Shown here piece after piece: positions 18,257-34,430 of a DNA stretch of 35,708 bases (position 1 is the stretch's first letter; each line of letters begins with the position of its first letter). The position numbers were made by a program, and so were the translations under genes. Below the pieces are notes generated by a model. It was not told the origin of the DNA. It saw nothing but the letters and a program-made list of their open reading frames with translations, and searched no databases. Origin of the DNA: Bacillota bacterium (lineage in GTDB: Bacteria > Bacillota > Limnochordia > DTU087); contig JAAYQZ010000093.1 in assembly GCA_012519025.1 (NCBI GenBank), forward strand, positions 1 to 35,708, given 5' to 3'.

Positions 18257-18718
18257 GTGGAAAGGTATACGTCCGACCTCCAACCGACGCATCACTCGGA
18301 GCAATTGAAGATAACCATTCCCCTTAGTGAACGGTATTTAACGATTCCCCGATTGGTCTTAGGGGATGTGTTCGTTAAGGCGGGTTTGGATGTTTGCGAA
18401 ATCACCAGTTACAAAGTCGCATTGACAGAGGCCTGCCGCAACCTTGTCCATTTTGCCTACAGTCACTTGGAGCCAAATGCTTTGCAGCTGTCATTCACCA
18501 AGACACCGATTAAGCTCACCATTGAAGTCAGCAATAGGGGCAAATGCTTTTGCAAACAGCGGGTTAAAGCCCACCCTGCTTTGAGTAAGTGGAGTTTGTC
18601 CAATGATATCGACCTTTTAATGATAACATCCTTAGTTGACGAGCTCCGCACCGGTGTCAGGCTCATTGATGATGAATGTGTGGCATTTGTAGTTTTGTCC
18701 AAGTACCTTGGAGCCTAA
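18257..18718 (+). CDS. RsbW/SpoIIAB-like anti-sigma factor (HATPase_c) with degenerate ATP box
   Basis: 153 residues, start GTG 18257 with AGGAAGG eight bases upstream. The fold resembles the GHKL kinases that bind sigma factors and phosphorylate STAS antagonists. The N-box is kept (ALTEACRNLVHFAY, with the usual Glu and Asn). The next box, normally DxGxGF, reads NRGKCF, so the Asp and second Gly are replaced. ATP binding may be weakened or lost. The region SNDIDLLMITSLVDELR matches the late helix of the family. It is divergent from spoIIE. No sigma factor or STAS protein is adjacent, so its partner is unknown. Confidence 0.7.
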   Translation: MERYTSDLQPTHHSEQLKITIPLSERYLTIPRLVLGDVFVKAGLDVCEITSYKVALTEACRNLVHFAYSHLEPNALQLSFTKTPIKLTIEVSNRGKCFCKQRVKAHPALSKWSLSNDIDLLMITSLVDELRTGVRLIDDECVAFVVLSKYLGA

Positions 18719-19313: not shown

Positions 19314-20009
19314 CTATGTTCTGATTCTTCTTGTGTCTGTAGGACCTTTACTTCCTGACGCGCTGCTTTCCCCCGGCACATCCTGTTGTTTAATGTGGTA
19401 GGCCAAAGTTGTCAGCCCAACAGCCAAATCTTCGTCCCGCACCAATACCCCTTCAGGCACTTCCAGCCGCACAGGTGCAAAATTCCAAATAGCTTTCGCT
19501 CCGGCTTTCACCATAATGCCGCATACATCCTGGGCCTCGGCCGCCGGTACAGTGATTATACCGATTTTAATCCCAAGGCGCTCCATCAATTCCCCACACT
19601 TACTCAAAGGCATCACCGGGCGCCCGTAAAGACTTTTGCCGATCTTGTTTTCATCTGTGTCAAACACAGTTGCTATTTGAAAACCGTAGCGCTGAAAACC
19701 GGGGTACCCTACCAATGCACTGCCAAGCCGACCGGCTCCTGCCAAAGCGGCATCAGTGTCATTGCGAAGTCCGAGGAAATCAGCTAAACACTCAGCCAGT
19801 TTCTCGATCTCATAGCCAAGACCGGGGCGTCCACCGCTCCAGATGTGATTTAAATCTTTTCTCACTTGGGCATTGTCAAATCCTGATCGAAAACCTAGAT
19901 CCTTCGATGAAATGTATTGAAGTCCAATCTCCCGGCAGTGCATAAGGACACGATAATATACCGGCATCCTCTCCAGCGTTGGCTTAGGGATAGAGACTAA
20001 TCGGGTCAT
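19314..20009 (-). CDS. rex: Redox-sensing transcriptional repressor Rex
   Basis: 231 residues: N-terminal winged helix (ISSKDLGFRSGFDNAQVRKDL, cited in part as SSKDLGFRSGFDNAQVRKDL) and a Rossmann NAD(H)-binding domain with GAGRLGSAL (91-99) and a C-terminal domain-swap helix. Rex leaves DNA when NADH is high, de-repressing fermentative and hydrogenase genes. The ATG at 20009 has AGGAGGGGG upstream. The usual RKDLxxFGxxGxxGxGY stretch reads RKDLNHIWSGGRPGLGY here. The last 22 or so residues are a polar extension. The gene lies just after the hydrogenase operon, behind a terminator, and two Rex-type sites occur at that operon's promoter. Confidence 0.93.
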   Translation of the reverse strand: MTRLVSIPKPTLERMPVYYRVLMHCREIGLQYISSKDLGFRSGFDNAQVRKDLNHIWSGGRPGLGYEIEKLAECLADFLGLRNDTDAALAGAGRLGSALVGYPGFQRYGFQIATVFDTDENKIGKSLYGRPVMPLSKCGELMERLGIKIGIITVPAAEAQDVCGIMVKAGAKAIWNFAPVRLEVPEGVLVRDEDLAVGLTTLAYHIKQQDVPGESSASGSKGPTDTRRIRT

Positions 20010-20160: not shown

Positions 20161-22164
20161 TTATTTCTCCAGTTCGTCTACTATCTTTCCAAATACTGCA
20201 TCAGTCTTGGCCGGAGACATGCCGCTGTAAAGAGTATCCCCAATTTTGACATTCACACCGCCGCCGCAGTTTTCAAAGCAGAAAGTGGCCTTTAAGTCTA
20301 CACGTTGATTCAGCTTCGCCTCTTGCAAACGATAGCCCAGGTTGTGCAGCAAATCATAAGCCCCCTTCAGGTAGCAGCCGGTGCCGACACAGACCGATAC
20401 CTCCAGCTGTTTTGCCGTGTGATTGTCCCCAAGGCTGATGCCTTCTCCCAATATGCGCCTTCGAGCACCATAGGTTGTATGCAGGGCATCGTGGGCCTTT
20501 TCGCTATTGGGTGCATCAAGCCACTTTTCATAGACGTTGTCGATCAATGGATTCTGATAGGACTTCCGCAGCTGTTGGGCTTTATCAGCAGTATAGATCC
20601 CCTGGGTCCTGGCACTCCGCACCTCTGGATTAGTTGCCGGCTGTCCGGCGCCTCCTACACAGCCTCCGGGACATGCCATAACTTCAATGATATGGTATTC
20701 TGCTTCACCATCTTTGATCTGCTGGAGGAGCCTTTTGGCGTTGGCAAGCCCAAAGACTATGGCCAATTTGACTTTCTGGCCTCCAACATCAACCTCTGCT
20801 GCCCTTAAGCCCTCTGTACCCCGAACTTCGGTAAAATTGACTTGATCGAGCTCCTCATCGAGCAGAAGGTAATGGGCGGCTCGCAGTACCGCTTCCGATA
20901 CCCCGCCTGTCACCCCAAAAAGGATACCTCCGCCTGAAGTGAACCCAAACGGCATATCCAATGAGTCATCTTCTAGATTAGCGTAATCCAATCCGGCTTC
21001 CCGAATCATTCGCACCACTTCTTGGGTAGTGATTACTACATCCACATCAGGCATGCCGTCAGTTGAGAGTTCCGGTCTTGCAGCTTCGAATTTCTTCGCT
21101 GTACAGGGCATTAGGCTGACAACCACCAGATCCTTAGGATCAATCTCGAGCTCTTCAGCGTAATATTTTTTCGCCAATGAGCCAAACATCTGCTGTGGTG
21201 AACGGCAAGTCGACAGGTTTCCTAAAAACTCCGGATGATACTGTTCGGTGTATTTTACCCAAGCAGGGCAGCATGATGTGAACTGGGGCAGGTGCTCACC
21301 TTTTTGGAGCCTCTCCAAGAACTCAGTACCCTCTTCCATGACTGTCAAATCAGCTGCAAAACTGGTGTCAAAGACTTTATCAAAACCCATTTGCCGCAGG
21401 GCCTGGGTTAATTTACCGATGGTGTTTTGCCCGGCTTCCAGACCAAACACCTCACCAACAGCTACTCTTACCGCCGGCGCTACCTGTACAATAACTGTCT
21501 TAGTCGGATCATGCAGTGCCTGCCAAACTTCGTTAGTTTGCGACTTGACAATTAAGGCACCGGTTGGGCAAACGGCAGCACATTGACCGCAGTTGACGCA
21601 GTCGACTTCTGCCATTGGTTTGTTAAAGGCAGGGGTTACGGTCATATCGGAGCCTCGGTGGGCAAAATCCAAAACTCCAATACCCTGTACCTCTTCACAC
21701 ATGCGCACGCAATCGCCGCACAGGATGCATTTGTTAGGATCCCTAATTAGGGCTAGACTCGAATCGTCGATATCCACTTTTTTGTCCCGTTGGCCAAAGC
21801 GCACTTCCCGCACACCAAAACGCTGGGCTAGATCCTGGAGTTTACACATGCCGCTTTTCTCGCAGGTAGTGCAATCACGATCATGGTTGGCAAGCAGAAG
21901 TTCTAATGCCATCTTGCGGATCTTCTGCACACGGGGTGTAGTGGTTTTAACTACTTGACCGGCCTCTGCCGGTGTTGAGCAGCCTGCCACGATTTGGCCG
22001 TTTTCCAACTCTACAAGACACATTCGACACGCACCATAGACGGAGAGCTCAGAATGATAACAAAAGGTGGGTAATTCAATGCCCGCTTTGCGGCATACCT
22101 CAAGGATGTTCCTTTCTCCATTGATTTCCACAGATTTGCCGTCGATAACCATGGTTTGGGCCAT
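20161..22164 (-). CDS. hydA: NAD-linked trimeric [FeFe] hydrogenase, catalytic subunit HydA
   Basis: 667 residues. In order: [2Fe-2S] domain (C35, C46, C49, C62), His-Cys [4Fe-4S] site (H94, C98, C101, C107), two [4Fe-4S] motifs (146-156 and 189-199), H-cluster domain with TSCCP (C299), MPCTAKK (C354) and ACPGGC (C498, C502), small-subunit domain, and an extra C-terminal thioredoxin-like [2Fe-2S] domain (C592, C597, C629, C633). It makes H2; with HydB and HydC it likely couples NADH and ferredoxin oxidation (electron confurcation). C298, the proton-transfer Cys, is kept. It overlaps the hydB end closely: GAGGAGG inside the last hydB codons is its ribosome-binding site. Confidence 0.96.
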   Translation of the reverse strand: MAQTMVIDGKSVEINGERNILEVCRKAGIELPTFCYHSELSVYGACRMCLVELENGQIVAGCSTPAEAGQVVKTTTPRVQKIRKMALELLLANHDRDCTTCEKSGMCKLQDLAQRFGVREVRFGQRDKKVDIDDSSLALIRDPNKCILCGDCVRMCEEVQGIGVLDFAHRGSDMTVTPAFNKPMAEVDCVNCGQCAAVCPTGALIVKSQTNEVWQALHDPTKTVIVQVAPAVRVAVGEVFGLEAGQNTIGKLTQALRQMGFDKVFDTSFAADLTVMEEGTEFLERLQKGEHLPQFTSCCPAWVKYTEQYHPEFLGNLSTCRSPQQMFGSLAKKYYAEELEIDPKDLVVVSLMPCTAKKFEAARPELSTDGMPDVDVVITTQEVVRMIREAGLDYANLEDDSLDMPFGFTSGGGILFGVTGGVSEAVLRAAHYLLLDEELDQVNFTEVRGTEGLRAAEVDVGGQKVKLAIVFGLANAKRLLQQIKDGEAEYHIIEVMACPGGCVGGAGQPATNPEVRSARTQGIYTADKAQQLRKSYQNPLIDNVYEKWLDAPNSEKAHDALHTTYGARRRILGEGISLGDNHTAKQLEVSVCVGTGCYLKGAYDLLHNLGYRLQEAKLNQRVDLKATFCFENCGGGVNVKIGDTLYSGMSPAKTDAVFGKIVDELEK

Positions 22165-24063
22165 TTAAACAACCTCCTCTATGGCATTAAAGCGACACGA
22201 TTCCACACATGCCCCGCACTTAATGCACAGTTCTTGATCTATAACATAGGGTTCTCTGACCTTGCCGGAGATGGCCCCAACCGGGCAGACTCTGGCACAG
22301 CGGCTGCAGCCTTTGCAAAGTTCACTATTAATCACAAATGTTTTCAGGCCCTCACAAACTCCTGCCGGACAGCGGCGCTCCACGACATGGGCAAGATACT
22401 CGTCTTTGAAATACTGCATGGTGGTTAATACAGGATTTGGTGCTGTTTTACCAAGACCGCACAGCGAGCCTTCTTGAACTGCTTCACCGATTTCCTCCAA
22501 TGCATCAAGATCAGATAGTTTGCCCTCACCATCGACAATTTTCTGCAGTATCTCCAGCATGCGTCTTGTTCCTTCCCGGCAAAGCACACATTTTCCGCAT
22601 GACTCATTCTGGGTGAAATTCATAAAGAACCTGGCTACTTCAACAATACAAGTGTTTTGATCCATCACAACCAAACCACCGGAGCCGATCATGGCCCCCG
22701 CATCTTGCAGGGAATCAAAATCCAAAGGTAAATCCAGGTGATCTGCTGTCAGACAACCACCGGAGGGTCCACCGATTTGCACGGCTTTGAACTCACCGTT
22801 GTTGCGCAGCCCACCACCGATGTCAAATACAATTTCCCGCAAAGTCTTACCCATAGGCACTTCAATCAGTCCGGTATTGGCCACTTCACCGGTTATAGCA
22901 AAGGTCTTTGTCCCGGGACTGGTTTCCGAACCGATATTTTTAAACCACTCTGCACCGTTTTGCAAAATGGGTGGGATATTGGCAAAGGTCTCTACATTGT
23001 TGATCAGTGTCGGACGTCCCCAAAGGCCGCTTTGTGCCGGGAAAGGAGGCTTTGGTCTCGGCATACCCCGCTTGCCCTCAATGGAGGCAATCAAAGCACT
23101 TTCCTCACCACAAACAAACGCGCCTGCACCTTCTTTGATCACAATGTCAAAGGCAAATCCTGTACCAAGAATATCTTCGCCTAACAGACCTTGGGCTTTG
23201 GCATCATCAATGGCCTTCTGCATTCTTTGAACTGCCAATGGATACTCGGCACGCATATAAACATAGCCTTCCGCGGCACCGATGGCATAGCCGGCGATAA
23301 TCATGCCCTCCAAGATGCGGTGAGGGTCGCCTTCCATTAGACTTCGATCCATAAATGCTCCCGGATCTCCTTCGTCACCATTGCAGATTACGTATTTAGA
23401 CGCACCGGCGGCTTTGCGGGTCAACACCCATTTAAGGCCTGCCGGAAATCCGCCACCACCGCGGCCTCTGAGGCCTGATTCTACGACAGTGTCACACACA
23501 GCCTCCGGAGCCATTTCGGTCAAAGCCTTGGCTAAAGCCCCATATCCGTCCCGGGCTATATACTCCCAGATGTTTTCTGGGTCAATTACACCACAGTCTC
23601 CGAGGGCGATTCGCTGCTGCTCCCGGTAGAAGGGGATATCTTCTTCTCTGGCAAAAACCTCGTTGGTATTGGGTTCCTCGTATAAAAGGCGTTCCACAAC
23701 TTCTCCTTCTGCCAAAGCATCGGCTATGTCTTGGGCATCCTCGGGCTTTACTCCCACATATAAAACACCTTCAGGTTCGATGCGAATTAGTGGGCCCTTT
23801 TCGCAAAAACCGTGACATCCACTCTTTTTAATCTCTATACCTTCCACCGGAGTTTCAGTGTTTTTGTCATGCTCTGCTTCCAATTCCACGGCAACGGCAA
23901 GTCCCAGGTCTTTGACAAGCTTCTTAAGTTCATCGAAAACCCTCAAAGAACCGCCGGCGACACAGCCCGTACCAGCGCAAACAAGTACCCGCTGCTTCAC
24001 CTTTTGTAATACTGCCTGCTTTTCTTGGCGCAGTGTCTCCAATACAGCCGCGTTTCGGATCAT
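22165..24063 (-). CDS. hydB: NAD-linked trimeric [FeFe] hydrogenase, flavoprotein subunit HydB (NuoF-like)
   Basis: 632 residues from ATG 24063 (GGGAGGGG upstream; a frame extending to 24144 has no ribosome-binding site and overlaps hydC). Domains: N-terminal thioredoxin-like [2Fe-2S] (C29, C34, C83, C87), NuoF core with GRGGGGFPAG (200-209, NADH) and NGDEGDPGAF (228-237, FMN), SLBB domain, [4Fe-4S] site (C489, C492, C495, C535), and a C-terminal 2[4Fe-4S] ferredoxin (C583-C593, C613-C623). This is the HydB/HndC layout of bifurcating hydrogenases, where NADH is oxidised at FMN. Gene spacing to hydC is 1 nt. Confidence 0.95.
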   Translation of the reverse strand: MIRNAAVLETLRQEKQAVLQKVKQRVLVCAGTGCVAGGSLRVFDELKKLVKDLGLAVAVELEAEHDKNTETPVEGIEIKKSGCHGFCEKGPLIRIEPEGVLYVGVKPEDAQDIADALAEGEVVERLLYEEPNTNEVFAREEDIPFYREQQRIALGDCGVIDPENIWEYIARDGYGALAKALTEMAPEAVCDTVVESGLRGRGGGGFPAGLKWVLTRKAAGASKYVICNGDEGDPGAFMDRSLMEGDPHRILEGMIIAGYAIGAAEGYVYMRAEYPLAVQRMQKAIDDAKAQGLLGEDILGTGFAFDIVIKEGAGAFVCGEESALIASIEGKRGMPRPKPPFPAQSGLWGRPTLINNVETFANIPPILQNGAEWFKNIGSETSPGTKTFAITGEVANTGLIEVPMGKTLREIVFDIGGGLRNNGEFKAVQIGGPSGGCLTADHLDLPLDFDSLQDAGAMIGSGGLVVMDQNTCIVEVARFFMNFTQNESCGKCVLCREGTRRMLEILQKIVDGEGKLSDLDALEEIGEAVQEGSLCGLGKTAPNPVLTTMQYFKDEYLAHVVERRCPAGVCEGLKTFVINSELCKGCSRCARVCPVGAISGKVREPYVIDQELCIKCGACVESCRFNAIEEVV

Positions 24064-24064
24064 G

Positions 24065-24595
24065 TCACTTCCCCTCCCGTTTCTGCAAAGTATCCAATAT
24101 CTCAGTAATTGCTTCTGGTGTGACATTGCCATACACTTCATCATTGATGGTGACTACAGGGGCCAACCCACAAGCACCAAGACATGATACTGTCTCTACG
24201 GTAAACCCCAAATCATCAGTTGTTTTTTGTTCTGGGCTCAATCCCACTTTTTTGCGGATTGCATTTAAAACATCAGTAGAACGCCGCACATGACAAGCGG
24301 TCCCATCGCAAACTCTTACGATGTATTCCCCCATGGGGTCTAGGGAAAATTGCGCATAGAAAGTGGCTACACCATAGACCGTTGCAGGGGATATCCCCAA
24401 TGCTGTAGCAACGTAGGTAAGAATCTCTTCCGGAAGATAGCGGTACTCCTCTTGTACCTTTTGTAGGATGGGAATTAAAGTAGATTCCTCTTTGCCGTGT
24501 TGGGCTATAATCTCATTGACCTTGATAAACTGCCGTTCTTGCAACATTCGCTCCTCCGCGTCGACAACCGGTAGGGCTTTTGCCACATCTATCAT
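24065..24595 (-). CDS. hydC: NAD-linked trimeric [FeFe] hydrogenase, HydC subunit (NuoE-like)
   Basis: 176 residues of the NuoE/24-kDa family: N-terminal helical bundle (LIPILQKVQEEYRYLPEEIL) and a thioredoxin-like [2Fe-2S] domain with C96, C101, C138 and C142. It passes electrons within the HydABC complex. ATG 24595 has AAGGGG upstream; a second in-frame ATG (residue 17) also has GGAGG and could be used. It is first of the three structural genes and follows the phosphatase gene by 39 nt. Confidence 0.94.
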   Translation of the reverse strand: MIDVAKALPVVDAEERMLQERQFIKVNEIIAQHGKEESTLIPILQKVQEEYRYLPEEILTYVATALGISPATVYGVATFYAQFSLDPMGEYIVRVCDGTACHVRRSTDVLNAIRKKVGLSPEQKTTDDLGFTVETVSCLGACGLAPVVTINDEVYGNVTPEAITEILDTLQKREGK

Positions 24596-24634: not shown

Positions 24635-25831
24635 TCAAAATGATGTGACTGTCACTGTTTTACCTGCCTGCTTGAGGGAATGGGTAAGCTCTTGAATTAC
24701 CTGTTCTTTGAGGGCTAGGCCTAAAGGCAGTTCAGGATTTTGATGTGCAGGATTGATCGCACCACCCACTAGAAAATCAATCTGATCACTTTCCCATAAC
24801 AAGGCCGCCAACATACTGGCACCATCCTCTCCCATCAAAACTTGACCCATTTCCATACCCGCATTTAAGCCTTTTAACTTCTCCAGCGCGCTGGAAACAG
24901 TGATGATCCCTTCTGTCACCAAGTCCACACCATTTATGCGGCCGAGGGGAGGAATCGTTGGGGTGCAGTAGCGCAGATCCACATCTAGATCCGTTTTCCA
25001 CTCCCGGGCAATAATATTGCTGGTGGTACCCCCACAAACTACCCTTCTCCCCGGTGCCTCAGCCAATAGGTGGGCCAGTTGTGCGTCATCTTCCCGCTTT
25101 CTCGGCGGCCCCACAACTATAGTCAGGTGCCGTGGACGGCGAATATATAGGGCGGCAACAGTGGTGTCATCACCGGGCCTTCCAGCATAAAGGTGCCGGC
25201 AGATATCCCCGAGTCTATGGGCAATGTCTAAAGCCCCATTCTCTTTGACTATGGCCTTTTCCAAAAACTTGGCTACATTGGGCCACTGCCAGCCCAAATT
25301 GAGTACTCCTCCAATCCCGGCATGCACCACGCCATCGCTGATGGCAACAAGAAAATCACCTTCAGACGCCATAAAGCGGGTTTCTTTAACTTTATTGGCG
25401 CCGATGCGGCGCTCACGATGGGGCAATTTTGTCACCTTACCGCGGTGGATGTAGAACACAGATGGGTTGTCAAACTCCGCCATATAGACCTTGCCATCAT
25501 TAAAAATTTGTATGATAGTAAAAGTTGAATAGGCGAGGCCCCGCACTTGGCACACCGGCAGAGTTTGACCCACCGTTTCCACTACTTCATCAAGCCTGGC
25601 ACCCATTTCCAGCATGGTGCCGGCGATCTTAGTAGTCAAAGTTGATAAAATGTTGGCCTTAACCCCACTGCCCAAGCCATCGGACAAAACCATGATTACC
25701 GAATCATTTCTATGGGAAATAACTACATTGTCTCCGCAAAGTTCTTCACCGTGTTTGTTTAAAGACACATAACCTGTCTCGATAATATAAGGGGAGTTTA
25801 CTAAAGGTATATTAAAAGCTGCTTCTGTCAC
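24635..25831 (-). CDS. SpoIIE-type PP2C serine phosphatase linked to the sensory hydrogenase
   Basis: 398 residues. The first 230 form a PP2C/SpoIIE phosphatase with metal-binding acids in CGDN (D34), SDGLGSG (D51), SDGV (D166) and GDDTT (221-222). It has no membrane segments, unlike SpoIIE. The last 165 residues (from about 236) are a separate alpha/beta-looking domain with GGTTSN and TPTIPPLGRINGVDLVTEG that I cannot name. It overlaps the sensory hydrogenase gene by 4 nt, so the two are translated together. Phosphatase-coupled sensory [FeFe] hydrogenases form a recognised group (C3 in the hydrogenase classification). The probable substrate is a phosphorylated STAS protein, but none is encoded nearby. 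Confidence 0.87.
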   Translation of the reverse strand: MTEAAFNIPLVNSPYIIETGYVSLNKHGEELCGDNVVISHRNDSVIMVLSDGLGSGVKANILSTLTTKIAGTMLEMGARLDEVVETVGQTLPVCQVRGLAYSTFTIIQIFNDGKVYMAEFDNPSVFYIHRGKVTKLPHRERRIGANKVKETRFMASEGDFLVAISDGVVHAGIGGVLNLGWQWPNVAKFLEKAIVKENGALDIAHRLGDICRHLYAGRPGDDTTVAALYIRRPRHLTIVVGPPRKREDDAQLAHLLAEAPGRRVVCGGTTSNIIAREWKTDLDVDLRYCTPTIPPLGRINGVDLVTEGIITVSSALEKLKGLNAGMEMGQVLMGEDGASMLAALLWESDQIDFLVGGAINPAHQNPELPLGLALKEQVIQELTHSLKQAGKTVTVTSF

Positions 25832-27567
25832 GGCGTCTCATCCCCATTCTGCATCAGCTTCATCAGCTGAGATAATAGAACCTTAGTTTCCGCCGTTGTT
25901 TCACCTAAAAGCCCGGCAATTTCTTGGGCAACCCGCATTTGCCGATTAATCACATCTTGGGCCCGCTCCAAAGTGGTGCTTTTGAGCTGGGCCAGTTCTG
26001 CCTGCCGGCCCCGATCTTCGGTTATATCAGAGAAAATGCCGATCACAATTTCTTGATCTTCCGGTGTAAACACATACTGACGCACTATCAGATTGTGCTG
26101 GGGATATTCAGCATTTTCTTGGATGAGTGCTCCTTTAGTTAAAACCTCTTCAAAACTGCTGGTATCTATTAGCTCACAAAGCGGTCTGTGTAAATGCGCT
26201 GCGACTTGACAGTTAAACATCGCTTCTGCCGCCGGGTTGACCACCAAAACCTCCAGGTTTTCGTCTACTACAATGATTCCATTGGGTGTTGTCTCAATGA
26301 TTACGTTGGCCAAGGATTCTGCCTTTCGGCGCATGTATGGGATGCACATCTCGTTTTCCGCAACCCCATGATAAACGGCTTTAGCCTTATCCCGGCATGA
26401 ATCATAACCACATGCCCCGCAGTTGAGCTCATCTTGGGGAGTTCGCTTGCCTATAGCCTCTAAAATTGCTTTCAACTCTGCTTCTGTCGGCTCTTTGAGT
26501 CTCAGTTTTCGATCACGATAAGTGCGTGTTATGAACGGAAGCAGCCGGCCGTTTTCGTCCAAATGAGGTGGTAAAGTTTTGAGGTGTGAATGTCTTTTCC
26601 TCCTCTTTTGTACATGGGAAAGCAATCTCTGCCGTCTTGCCAAACCCTGCCAAGGCCCAACCATACAGGGACCATCAACACACCCTCCGGCACAGGCCAG
26701 CATTTCAATTAAAGTCAGAGACAAATCTACTCCCTCAATCAATTGGCAAATTACCGATTCGCATTCTTCAATTCCGGCCACAATGGCCATCTGATCCGCC
26801 AAAACATCTGTATCCAAACCGGCGGTGCGCATGAGCCCCCCGCCTAGGGGAAAACTCCGACCCCAGTAAGCGTCGTTGGAAGTGTATCCCACCGATGCCA
26901 GGGCTTTAGGGTCAATGCACTCATCTGCCAACCATTTTTCTACTTCCTGGAAAGTGAGTACATGGGATACTGCCCCCTCAAACTGTACTTCTTCTGCTTC
27001 GGCTTTTTTAGCAGCACATGGGCCGATAAAAACAACTTCCACTTCAAAGTTGTACTGCTCTTGCAAAAGACGTCCATGGGCAATCATGGGTGAAACAATC
27101 GGTGCCAAATAAGGGATTGCTTCCGGATAGTGCTGTTCTATAAGGTTCACAATGGCCGGGCAGGAGCTTGTAATTATGGGTTTGTGTTCATCCAAAAGGG
27201 CTTTGTGGGCCTGGGCTACGATCTCGGCCGCTGCGGCAGTCTCTGCCACATGACTAAAACCCAGCTTATAAAGGGCGGTGATCATTTGATCGGCTGTTGC
27301 CACACTGAAGGCAGCCACATAAGATGGCGCCAGGCTCGCCACCAAAACTCGTCCACCGGCCAGGCTTGCCTGCACCTTGCCCAGATCATCTCTAACCTGT
27401 TTGGCACCTTGCGGACAAACACTAATACACCGGCCATCGAGGATACATCGTTCCTCCCAAATCTTGGCATGACCGGTATCGATCTTGATGGCTTTGACAG
27501 GGCAGGCTCTAACACATTTATAGCAATCTTTGCATTCAGCCTCCAAAGTTGCCAACACGCGCCCCAC
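25828..27567 (-). CDS. Sensory [FeFe] hydrogenase with PAS domain (HydS, group C type)
   Basis: 579 residues, start GTG 27567. Order: ferredoxin-like domain (C12, C15, C18, C22; then C41, D44, C47, C51), H-cluster domain with TSSCP (C136), GPCAAKK (C184) and ACAGGC (C292, C296), a [4Fe-4S] module (CGACGYDSC, then C408), a PAS domain (about 415-520), and a helical tail. All four H-cluster Cys are present, but the proton-relay Cys is Ser (S135) and the CPGGC proline is Ala, as in sensory rather than catalytic enzymes. The second cluster has CxxD. It probably senses H2 and signals through the PAS domain to the coupled phosphatase. Confidence 0.9.
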   Translation of the reverse strand: MGRVLATLEAECKDCYKCVRACPVKAIKIDTGHAKIWEERCILDGRCISVCPQGAKQVRDDLGKVQASLAGGRVLVASLAPSYVAAFSVATADQMITALYKLGFSHVAETAAAAEIVAQAHKALLDEHKPIITSSCPAIVNLIEQHYPEAIPYLAPIVSPMIAHGRLLQEQYNFEVEVVFIGPCAAKKAEAEEVQFEGAVSHVLTFQEVEKWLADECIDPKALASVGYTSNDAYWGRSFPLGGGLMRTAGLDTDVLADQMAIVAGIEECESVICQLIEGVDLSLTLIEMLACAGGCVDGPCMVGPWQGLARRQRLLSHVQKRRKRHSHLKTLPPHLDENGRLLPFITRTYRDRKLRLKEPTEAELKAILEAIGKRTPQDELNCGACGYDSCRDKAKAVYHGVAENEMCIPYMRRKAESLANVIIETTPNGIIVVDENLEVLVVNPAAEAMFNCQVAAHLHRPLCELIDTSSFEEVLTKGALIQENAEYPQHNLIVRQYVFTPEDQEIVIGIFSDITEDRGRQAELAQLKSTTLERAQDVINRQMRVAQEIAGLLGETTAETKVLLSQLMKLMQNGDETP

Positions 27568-27821
27568 TACTTCACCCCCACTTTTGGAAGCACTTCTTGT
27601 TGAAAAATCTCATCTGTATCTTGAGCTGTTACACATATGATGGGATCGGCTCCAATCTGCACCGCCACTGCCTCAGTACAGTGACCTACACAAAAGACAC
27701 CTTTTAGTTCCACTTTATCCTCTAACGAAAGATTATGAATTAAGGTTTGAAATCGATTTATGATTGCATATGAACCTTTGATATGACAGGAGCTGCCAAC
27801 ACATACGGCAATGGTAACCAT
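27567..27821 (-). CDS. Small thioredoxin-like [2Fe-2S] ferredoxin
   Basis: 84 residues when started at ATG 27821 (GAGGGG seven bases upstream; the frame extends to 27875 without support). Four Cys with the NuoE-type spacing: C7, C12, C44, C48. The same domain recurs at the C-terminus of HydA and the N-terminus of HydB. It is the first gene of the hydrogenase operon, directly joined to the sensory hydrogenase (stop and start touch). It may carry electrons to or from the sensor. The redox partner is inferred. Confidence 0.88.
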   Translation of the reverse strand: MVTIAVCVGSSCHIKGSYAIINRFQTLIHNLSLEDKVELKGVFCVGHCTEAVAVQIGADPIICVTAQDTDEIFQQEVLPKVGVK

Positions 27822-27843
27822 GTCCAGACCCCTCTTCGGCGGC

Positions 27844-27861
27844 TCGTGCACTATTTCACAA
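27844..27861. promoter_or_regulatory. Rex-type operator 2, at the hydrogenase transcription start
   Basis: On the minus strand TTGTGAAATAGTGCACGA matches the Bacillota Rex consensus (TTGTGAAATA, then TTTCACAA) at 15 of 18 positions. It sits just downstream of the -10, over the predicted start, where a repressor would block initiation. Confidence 0.55.
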
Positions 27862-27865
27862 TCAG

Positions 27866-27894
27866 AGGATATCACTTCGCTCTTGAAAGAACAA
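27866..27894 (-). promoter_or_regulatory. Promoter of the hydrogenase operon
   Basis: Minus strand TTGTTC (27889-27894), 17-bp spacer, TATCCT (27866-27871). Both hexamers are imperfect but well spaced, and the pair lies between the two Rex-type sites. Confidence 0.6.
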
Positions 27895-27901
27895 GGGATT
27901 G

Positions 27902-27915
27902 GTGAAATATTTCAC
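27902..27915. promoter_or_regulatory. Rex-type operator 1, perfect palindrome
   Basis: GTGAAATATTTCAC is a perfect 14-bp palindrome matching the core of the Rex site (TTGTGAAAT-type). It lies 7 bp upstream of the hydrogenase -35 and about 13 bp upstream of a possible hslO -35, so it may act on both divergent units. Confidence 0.7.
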
Positions 27916-27928
27916 ATTAAATTTACTT

Positions 27929-27985: not shown

Positions 27986-28909
27986 ATGGGAAAATTGGGC
28001 CAAGACAACAGCAGTGGCCTTAACGAATACGTCGCACAAGGCACTGCCGCCAATGGGCAGATCCGCGTATTGGCTGTCGATAATACTAAAATAGTGGAAG
28101 AAGTCAGACGGCGTCACCAAATGCTTCCTTGGGCCAGTGCCGCATTGGGACGAACTATGGCTGCCACTGCTATGCTCGGTGCCATGTTAAAGGACAATGA
28201 CAAAGTTACTGTGCAAATTGTCGGAGACGGCCCTTTAGGTCAGATCGTTGCCGATGGGGATGCACAGGGCAATTTGCGGGGGTATGTTTCAAATCCCCAT
28301 GCCGAAGTACCAAACCACTCAGGAAATAAGTTGAATGTTGGGGCCGCGGTTGGTGAAGGGCATCTGTTTGTGATTAGAGACATAGGATTGGGTGAACCTT
28401 ACAGCGGCAGTGTTCCCCTCATAAGCGGGGAGATAGCTGAGGATTTTGCCAATTATTTTGCCCGTTCAGAGCAAACGCCCTCTGCGGTTGCCCTGGGAGT
28501 CTTGGTTGATGTAGACTACTCCATCAAAGCCTCCGGTGGCCTCATACTGCAGCTGCTGCCCGATGCAAGTGAAGGTATTGCTATTATGTTGGAACACATG
28601 CTGAAAGACCTGCCGCCCATCAGCAGCATCTTAGCAGACGGCGGTACACCGGAAGATATAATTGAAGCCGCTGTGGGTGATCTTGAGCCAAAATACCTCC
28701 ATCAACTGCCACTGCGCTTCAGCTGCACCTGCTCACGAAAACGGGGTGAGGCTACCTTGGTGGCTCTTGGTCCCGAAGAGCTGAGGTCTTTGCTTGAGGA
28801 CGAGGGACAAGCAAAACTTACATGTCACTTTTGTCAAGAGGAATACGTCTATGATCAGCGTGATGTGGAGGCAATAATCCATCAAATCACTGCCCAAGCC
28901 GGGGAATGA
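27986..28909 (+). CDS. hslO: Redox-regulated chaperone Hsp33
   Basis: 307 residues of normal Hsp33 length. The N-terminal substrate-binding core (WASAALGRTMAATAMLG, GDGPLGQIVADGDAQGNLRGY) is followed by the C-terminal zinc centre C247-x-C249 and C280-xx-C283. Under oxidative stress Zn loss and disulfide formation unfold the switch and turn on holdase activity. ATG 27986 has AAAGGGG upstream. It is divergent from the hydrogenase operon and shares its intergenic region with the Rex palindrome. Confidence 0.96.
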   Translation: MGKLGQDNSSGLNEYVAQGTAANGQIRVLAVDNTKIVEEVRRRHQMLPWASAALGRTMAATAMLGAMLKDNDKVTVQIVGDGPLGQIVADGDAQGNLRGYVSNPHAEVPNHSGNKLNVGAAVGEGHLFVIRDIGLGEPYSGSVPLISGEIAEDFANYFARSEQTPSAVALGVLVDVDYSIKASGGLILQLLPDASEGIAIMLEHMLKDLPPISSILADGGTPEDIIEAAVGDLEPKYLHQLPLRFSCTCSRKRGEATLVALGPEELRSLLEDEGQAKLTCHFCQEEYVYDQRDVEAIIHQITAQAGE

Positions 28910-34242: not shown

Positions 34243-34261
34243 AAAGGTGACAATCTAGATA

Positions 34262-34408
34262 AGTCTTCGGGGCAAGGTGCGAAGGTGAAAGCCTTCAATT
34301 CCTGACCGGCGGTATGTCTGTAAGATGAGCCCGCGAACCCATGTGAGTCATGTGGTTGATCCGGTGAAATTCCGGAGCCGACAGTATAGTCTGGATGGTA
34401 GAAGACAT
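34262..34408 (+). ncRNA. FMN riboswitch (RFN element)
   Basis: All conserved blocks are present: TCTTCGGGGCAAGGTG, ACCGGCGGT, AGCCCGCGAA, then TTGATCCGGTGAAATTCCGG, GCCGACAGT and AGTCTGGATG. P1 is closed by GTCTTC (34263-34268) and GAAGAC (34401-34406). FMN binding would favour the terminator that follows and switch off ribU. Confidence 0.97.
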
Positions 34409-34430
34409 TGGTAGTAGAGTTTTGCTGTGC

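Follow-up and report, generated by a model that had tools for sequence, protein, structure and literature searches.

A phosphatase-linked sensory [FeFe] hydrogenase in a putatively Rex-controlled hydrogenase operon of a Limnochordia bacterium, and a candidate docking segment at its C terminus

The DNA analysed here, a window of 35,708 nucleotides (nt) that spans contig G000:C22 from end to end, belongs to a draft genome of 2.4 Mb and 98.6% completeness from a member of the Bacillota (Limnochordia; DTU087). It encodes a sensory [FeFe] hydrogenase, HydS, and a Ser/Thr phosphatase upstream of a trimeric hydrogenase. All genes of this string are on the minus strand; their coordinates are those of open reading frames (ORFs) on the window, and their domains were assigned by Pfam. 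In 5' to 3' order, they encode a thioredoxin-like [2Fe-2S] protein (27567..27875, 102 aa as an ORF; PF01257, 5.6e-9), of which the start codon is more likely the ATG at 27821 than the ORF start at 27875; HydS, of group C3 type (25828..27567, 579 aa); a SpoIIE-type PPM phosphatase (24635..25831, 398 aa; PF07228); the NuoE-like subunit HydC (24065..24595; PF01257, 1.9e-54); the NuoF-like subunit HydB (22165..24144; PF01512 and PF10589), the listed start of which overlaps nuoE and is probably too early; HydA, the catalytic subunit of the trimeric hydrogenase (20161..22164; NF040763, group A6, 804 bits against a cut-off of 765); and Rex, the NADH/NAD+-sensing repressor (19314..20009; NF003994, 236 bits against a cut-off of 130). 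The [2Fe-2S] gene overlaps hydS by 1 nt, hydS overlaps the phosphatase gene by 4 nt, and a gap of 39 nt separates the latter from nuoE; because of this spacing, the genes from the [2Fe-2S] gene through hydA presumably form a single transcription unit. The rex gene, found at the same place in those family relatives whose contigs extend to it, is probably either the last gene of the string or a separate unit, and hsp33 is divergent from the string at 27986. The original prediction had HydS and an overlapping phosphatase in one unit with hydCBA: the ORF coordinates, the overlap and the tight same-strand arrangement upstream of hydCBA are as it described, whereas the single transcript is deduced from spacing. 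Its coordinates left out two consistent members of the string, the [2Fe-2S] gene (27567-27875) and the downstream rex.

Upstream of the leading gene of the string are two Rex-like operators, where chance would give 0.04 in the window: operator 1 (TGGTGAAATATTTCACAT, 27900..27917) has two mismatches to TTGTGAAATATTTCACAA, and operator 2 (TCGTGCACTATTTCACAA, 27844..27861) has three. Operator 1 coincides in part with the -10-like hexamer of a promoter-like site on the minus strand (27935-27906), although such sites are weak evidence alone, twelve being found in the window and 12.1 expected. Rex-like sites are also enriched upstream of the string in relatives, 26 of 75 regions scoring at least 11 out of 14 compared to about 3% of shuffled sequences. 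A Rex protein is encoded in the genome and the promoter region carries Rex-like operators, so the operon has the makings of a Rex regulon member, as had been proposed; Rex would bind both operators and give the operon an NADH/NAD+ input. Convergent with rex is a gene for an RsbW-like ATPase (HATPase_c_2, 18257-18718), which adjoins rex in several family relatives (52-65% identity) and in which, by eye, the N box is present and the DxGxG box is missing, so that it may be a pseudo-kinase.

HydS has the architecture of group C (M2f): two N-terminal [4Fe-4S] sites (two Fer4 domains), an H-cluster domain (26668..27345; Fe_hyd_lg_C, 173 bits, 7.8e-50), a C-terminal [4Fe-4S] motif, Cx2Cx4Cx16C (26338..26427; PF04060), with cysteines invariant in 53 of 53 aligned homologues, and a PAS domain (26023..26304; PF00989, 5e-9) that shows PAS-like strands and helices in the AlphaFold2 model of the protein (mean pLDDT 90). 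The H-cluster loops read TSSCP (L1), GPCAAKKAE (L2) and EMLACAGGC (L3). Loss of the H-cluster would have been fatal to the idea of a sensor, and at the sequence level all four ligand cysteines (C136, C184, C292 and C296) are intact, as they are in all 53 homologues. In sensory enzymes the proton-transfer cysteine (C299 of CpI) is usually replaced and M353 gives way to a small residue (PMC10055695, PMC8163306); HydS shows this sensory pattern, with Ser135 at the position of C299 (Ala in 18 homologues, Cys in 17, Ser in 12), Gly182 at that of M353 (Gly in 50, Asp in 3) and Leu at that of M497. In a quick tree that includes the group D protein of the same genome and was built without HydDB reference sequences, 26 HydS proteins cluster as a single clade, to the exclusion of groups A, B-like and D (SH-aLRT 93, the starred threshold being 95). 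Domains, cluster ligands and tree position thus agree with the PAS-containing group C-type hydrogenase originally predicted, and HydS would bind H2 at a slow, altered H-cluster. At residue 44 (27438-27436), Asp takes the place of one Cys of the second N-terminal [4Fe-4S] site, a substitution common to 12 of the 53 aligned HydS that suggests an Asp-ligated or a [3Fe-4S] cluster.

The phosphatase matches PF07228 (1.8e-16), and its best Foldseek match is the SpoIIE phosphatase 5mqh (E 8e-16), other PPM enzymes being matched as well. The description of it as soluble fits, since no further Pfam domain was found. Its metal-binding aspartates are kept, D34, D51, D166 and D222 being invariant in 60 of 60 aligned sequences, as is D221. 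The chain begins at the first strand of the PPM fold and has no N-terminal helical linker of the kind present in RsbU and RsbP; it is possible that the enzyme works like these linker-controlled phosphatases, of which it is not claimed to be a member. Residues 235-398 (24638..25129) form a conserved, well-predicted alpha/beta C-terminal domain with CGGTT, DLVTEG and INPAHQNP motifs and a mean entropy of 1.89 bits, compared to 1.71 bits for the catalytic domain. This domain has no Pfam match at E<=1 and no sequence match in the PDB, and among 151 genomes it occurs only on phosphatases of the HydS-paired type, save for one 137-aa fragment in genome G038. No named fold could be given to it, as the best 50 Foldseek matches are all PPM-type phosphatases.

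The pairing of HydS with this phosphatase is obligate across genomes. In a neighbourhood survey of 80 public loci, in 77 of which a phosphatase ORF was called, HydS immediately precedes the phosphatase in 74 of the 77, most pairs overlapping by 1-4 nt; in the other three, HydS was found by tblastn or would lie past the contig end. Such a layout is far beyond chance, and phosphatases of only 26-30% identity still have HydS beside them. The [2Fe-2S] gene is upstream of hydS in 67 of the 80 loci (tblastn). The hydrogenase encoded downstream is of two kinds, NuoE-NuoF-HydA or a group B-like enzyme of one subunit, and rex and an AdhE-like gene are sometimes present as well; no gene family other than hydrogenase subunits and rex recurs widely beside the module in the 80 loci. 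A conserved kinase, STAS or sigma factor gene was sought there as well, and none recurs.

Within HydS, conservation peaks not at the H-cluster but in a C-terminal stretch behind the PAS domain (QMRVAQEIAxLLGETTAETK). The near-invariant core, residues 539-562, has a mean entropy of 0.37 bits, compared to 1.0 bits for the FeS motif, 1.2-1.8 bits for the H-cluster loops and 2.4 bits for PAS. From its conservation and genomic position, the helix-GETT-helix segment to which this core belongs (residues 539-574; 25846..25953, minus strand) is proposed to be a phosphatase-docking element. In the AlphaFold2 monomer it comes after a long helix (516-554) and the GETT turn, and pLDDT there drops to 53-80, as it would for an element that binds a partner. 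A 49-residue profile of the segment finds 145 copies in 398 genomes, of which 143 are located 6-138 nt before a same-strand phosphatase match; of the remaining two, one is a tandem hydS and the other is at a contig end. Genomes with the segment number 122 and those with the phosphatase 124, the two without a segment match having an orphan phosphatase and a HydS with a diverged tail, respectively. The orphan (L172:7587-8726, genome G016; 40% identity) retains the C-terminal domain; it adjoins a DUF3810 gene and no hydS, and its genome gave no segment match. At another locus (L173:2288-7255), two tandem hydS genes, both with the C-terminal segment, precede a single phosphatase. No natural fusion of HydS or its segment to the phosphatase is present in the surveyed loci or among the approximately 145 segment copies (open frames of up to 769 aa).

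As a control, a profile of the FeS motif and PAS domain recovers about 150 HydS of the set and then proteins of 792-874 aa that match mainly its FeS part. A motif search finds the segment to be absent from four group C proteins with other outputs, two hydrogenase-PAS-histidine kinases (PAS-HisKA-HATPase) and two hydrogenase-PAS-sigma-54 activators (PAS-AAA+-HTH); since these sensors with fused outputs lack it, the segment appears to take the place of the output domain. The tail was also considered as a degenerate histidine-kinase DHp (HisKA) domain, VAQEI resembling VAHEI, and this was rejected, with an hhalign probability of 0.3% to a HisKA profile of five sequences and no Pfam match. Divergent phosphatases co-occur with divergent segments. 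After removal of the hydrogenase-domain signal, the partial distance correlation with the phosphatase catalytic domain is 0.43 for the linker and motif, 0.25 for PAS and -0.03 for FeS. Obligate adjacency, a private motif and correlated evolution strongly support the predicted coupling of sensor and phosphatase.

Modules of this type are already known. HydDB group C3 is defined as 'phosphatase-linked (putative)' (PMC5037454), and the statement that phosphatase-coupled sensory hydrogenases are a known class holds on this account. The locus is like C3 in having a PAS-bearing sensory [FeFe] hydrogenase gene that adjoins and overlaps that of a Ser/Thr phosphatase; no difference excludes membership, and this pair is a further C3 member. 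H2 sensing and signalling through the phosphatase are putative for C3 pairs, in HydDB as well. Many fermenters have been described in which a sensory hydrogenase and a regulator gene accompany a trimeric hydrogenase (PMC3561251). In Thermotoga maritima (TM1420-TM1422/TM1424-TM1426), according to published descriptions, the dimeric M2f sensory hydrogenase TmHydS is similarly encoded one gene upstream of a trimeric hydrogenase, but has Ala at position 299 where Ser is present here (PMC3561251, PMC10055695). In Thermoanaerobacterium, the hfsABCD operon encodes the PAS-hydrogenase HfsB followed by the serine phosphatase homologue HfsC and a hydrogenase (PMC5707799, PMC11837493); HfsD is described as ferredoxin-linked and HydA2-like, whereas the partner here is the trimeric, NADH-linked HydABC. 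The HydS operon of Ruminococcus albus combines a PAS-bearing sensor hydrogenase and a putative Ser/Thr phosphatase with a ferredoxin-only hydrogenase and an alcohol/aldehyde dehydrogenase, and a feedback loop induced by high H2 and involving the phosphatase has already been proposed for it (PMC6776011), so the H2 feedback idea is not new either. The C-terminal segment of HydS and the private phosphatase domain are not described in the literature examined, in which older work is sparsely covered.

The reading that we favour, and consider somewhat better than evenly supported, is that this is a Rex-controlled hydrogenase operon with a built-in C3 H2-sensing module, in which the tail of HydS docks on the phosphatase in trans and sets its activity. 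The module would consist of the [2Fe-2S] protein, HydS and the PPM phosphatase. HydS would bind H2 at the H-cluster; the state of the H-cluster and FeS chain may then change the PAS domain and the coiled coil behind it, and residues 539-574 would dock on the phosphatase. The phosphatase would act on a Ser/Thr-phosphorylated protein encoded elsewhere and thereby tune hydrogenase and fermentation genes, with Rex adding the NADH/NAD+ input at the promoter. Docking in trans is proposed because of the position, conservation, exclusive co-occurrence and correlated evolution of the segment, and because the PPM domain is on a separate chain from the sensor, PAS and helix, with no fusion of the two in about 145 cases. 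The phosphatase of RsbU, and probably that of RsbP, is switched by dimerisation of a helical linker that joins the sensor domain to the PPM domain (PMC12143880). The three elements, sensor domain, alpha helix and PPM phosphatase, may likewise act together here, the HydS tail standing in for the covalent PAS-coiled-coil linker, with the differences that the C3 components are always two polypeptides and that the phosphatase has an extra C-terminal domain. The more specific proposal, that the C3 pair is a split, trans-acting PAS-coiled-coil-PPM switch with a dedicated docking segment found nowhere else and with the private phosphatase domain as a second contact or substrate-recognition surface, is evenly poised.

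The likely sign of the effect is a tentative suggestion by analogy with hfs genetics: HydS may hold output down except at high H2. In Thermoanaerobacterium, strains deleted for hfsA or hfsB express more adhE and yield more ethanol, an effect not seen on loss of hfsC or hfsD (PMC5707799); when R. albus is co-cultured with an H2 consumer, its sensor-bearing operon is lower by 111-fold (PMC6776011). Both observations agree with a sensor that keeps output restrained at all but high H2. If correct, the trans switch would supply the missing output step of sensory [FeFe] hydrogenases, the partner and signalling step of which recent work lists as open questions (PMC13104023, PMC11376134). A partner predicted from a short conserved segment makes the signalling question directly testable by mutation, and control of H2 versus ethanol formation in fermenting bacteria is of practical use.

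Several points weigh against this interpretation. Control of phosphatase activity by HydS, here or in any C3 pair, is putative. Overexpression of hfsD alone in an hfsABCD deletion strain mimics the high-ethanol phenotype of the hfsB deletion (PMC11837493), so this phenotype can arise without the phosphatase, and the C-terminal cluster of the group D sensor TamHydS is not reduced by H2 (PMC13104023). Shared phylogeny left after the correction could account for part of the correlated evolution; the motif control covers only four non-C3 group C proteins; the structure models are of single chains; and the phosphatase substrate is a presumed one, no substrate gene being linked to the module. A search for the maturases HydF and HydG found neither in this genome, which carries at least five [FeFe] hydrogenase genes, nor in seven of the ten family relatives covered. 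An assembly gap is the simpler reading of their absence: hydG, with hydF in two cases, is on small contigs or contig edges in three relatives (G006, G007 and G010).

It is also conceivable, but unlikely, that the module senses redox state rather than H2, the [2Fe-2S] protein and the FeS chain of HydS reading the ferredoxin/NADH poise, with the H-cluster only equilibrating and control of the phosphatase unchanged. The frequency of the thioredoxin-like [2Fe-2S] gene before hydS and the shared phenotype of hfsA and hfsB deletions (PMC5707799) are in keeping with this, but the invariance of the four H-cluster cysteines is not, nor is the presence of Rex, which already reads redox poise; moreover, TmHydS and TamHydS bind and turn over H2 (PMC10055695, PMC8163306). 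Partner switching, in which the phosphatase would dephosphorylate a STAS anti-anti-sigma factor as SpoIIE and RsbU do, and H2 would control a sigma factor, is rather improbable. The phosphatase fold is that of SpoIIE/RsbU, and an RsbW-like ATPase is found beside rex in several relatives and another in the operon of the group D sensor of the same genome. Nevertheless, of three STAS matches in the genome, two belong to sets with their own phosphatase (spoIIAA with spoIIAB/sigF, L043, the phosphatase being spoIIE; an Rsb-like set, L042, C85) and the third is in an open frame of 514 aa, genes for STAS proteins or sigma factors do not recur around the module in the 80 loci, and the ATPase of the window looks degenerate. 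That HydS serves the neighbouring hydrogenase as an accessory or catalytic subunit, with the phosphatase acting on the enzyme complex, is highly improbable despite the common operon, the common FeS chemistry and the paralogous H-domain, because the module is also found beside group B-like single-subunit hydrogenases and an AdhE-like gene, the partner enzyme being exchangeable and the HydS-phosphatase pair not, because PAS and phosphatase are a regulatory architecture, and because group C and D sensors have low activity (PMC8163306, PMC10055695).

Other hydrogenases of putative sensory type are also encoded in the genomes examined. A second putative sensor operon of the same genome (L041:261-4532, contig G000:C63) encodes a DRTGG protein, an RsbW-like ATPase, a group D-like hydrogenase, a second DRTGG-like protein, a PHP-like protein, a HATPase and [2Fe-2S] proteins, and ends in NuoE-NuoF-HydA; one sensor module of this genome is thus associated with a phosphatase and the other with an RsbW-like ATPase. 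At two further loci (L183:1736-4351 and L184:1402-4023), a group C-type [FeFe] hydrogenase with FeS and PAS domains is fused to a sigma-54 AAA+ activator, the HTH domain being matched in L184, and adjoins nuoE/nuoF-like genes; by architecture, each would be a one-protein H2-responsive transcription activator outside HydDB subtypes C1-C3. Elsewhere in the window, an FMN riboswitch is located at 34259-34410 (RF00050, 113 bits).

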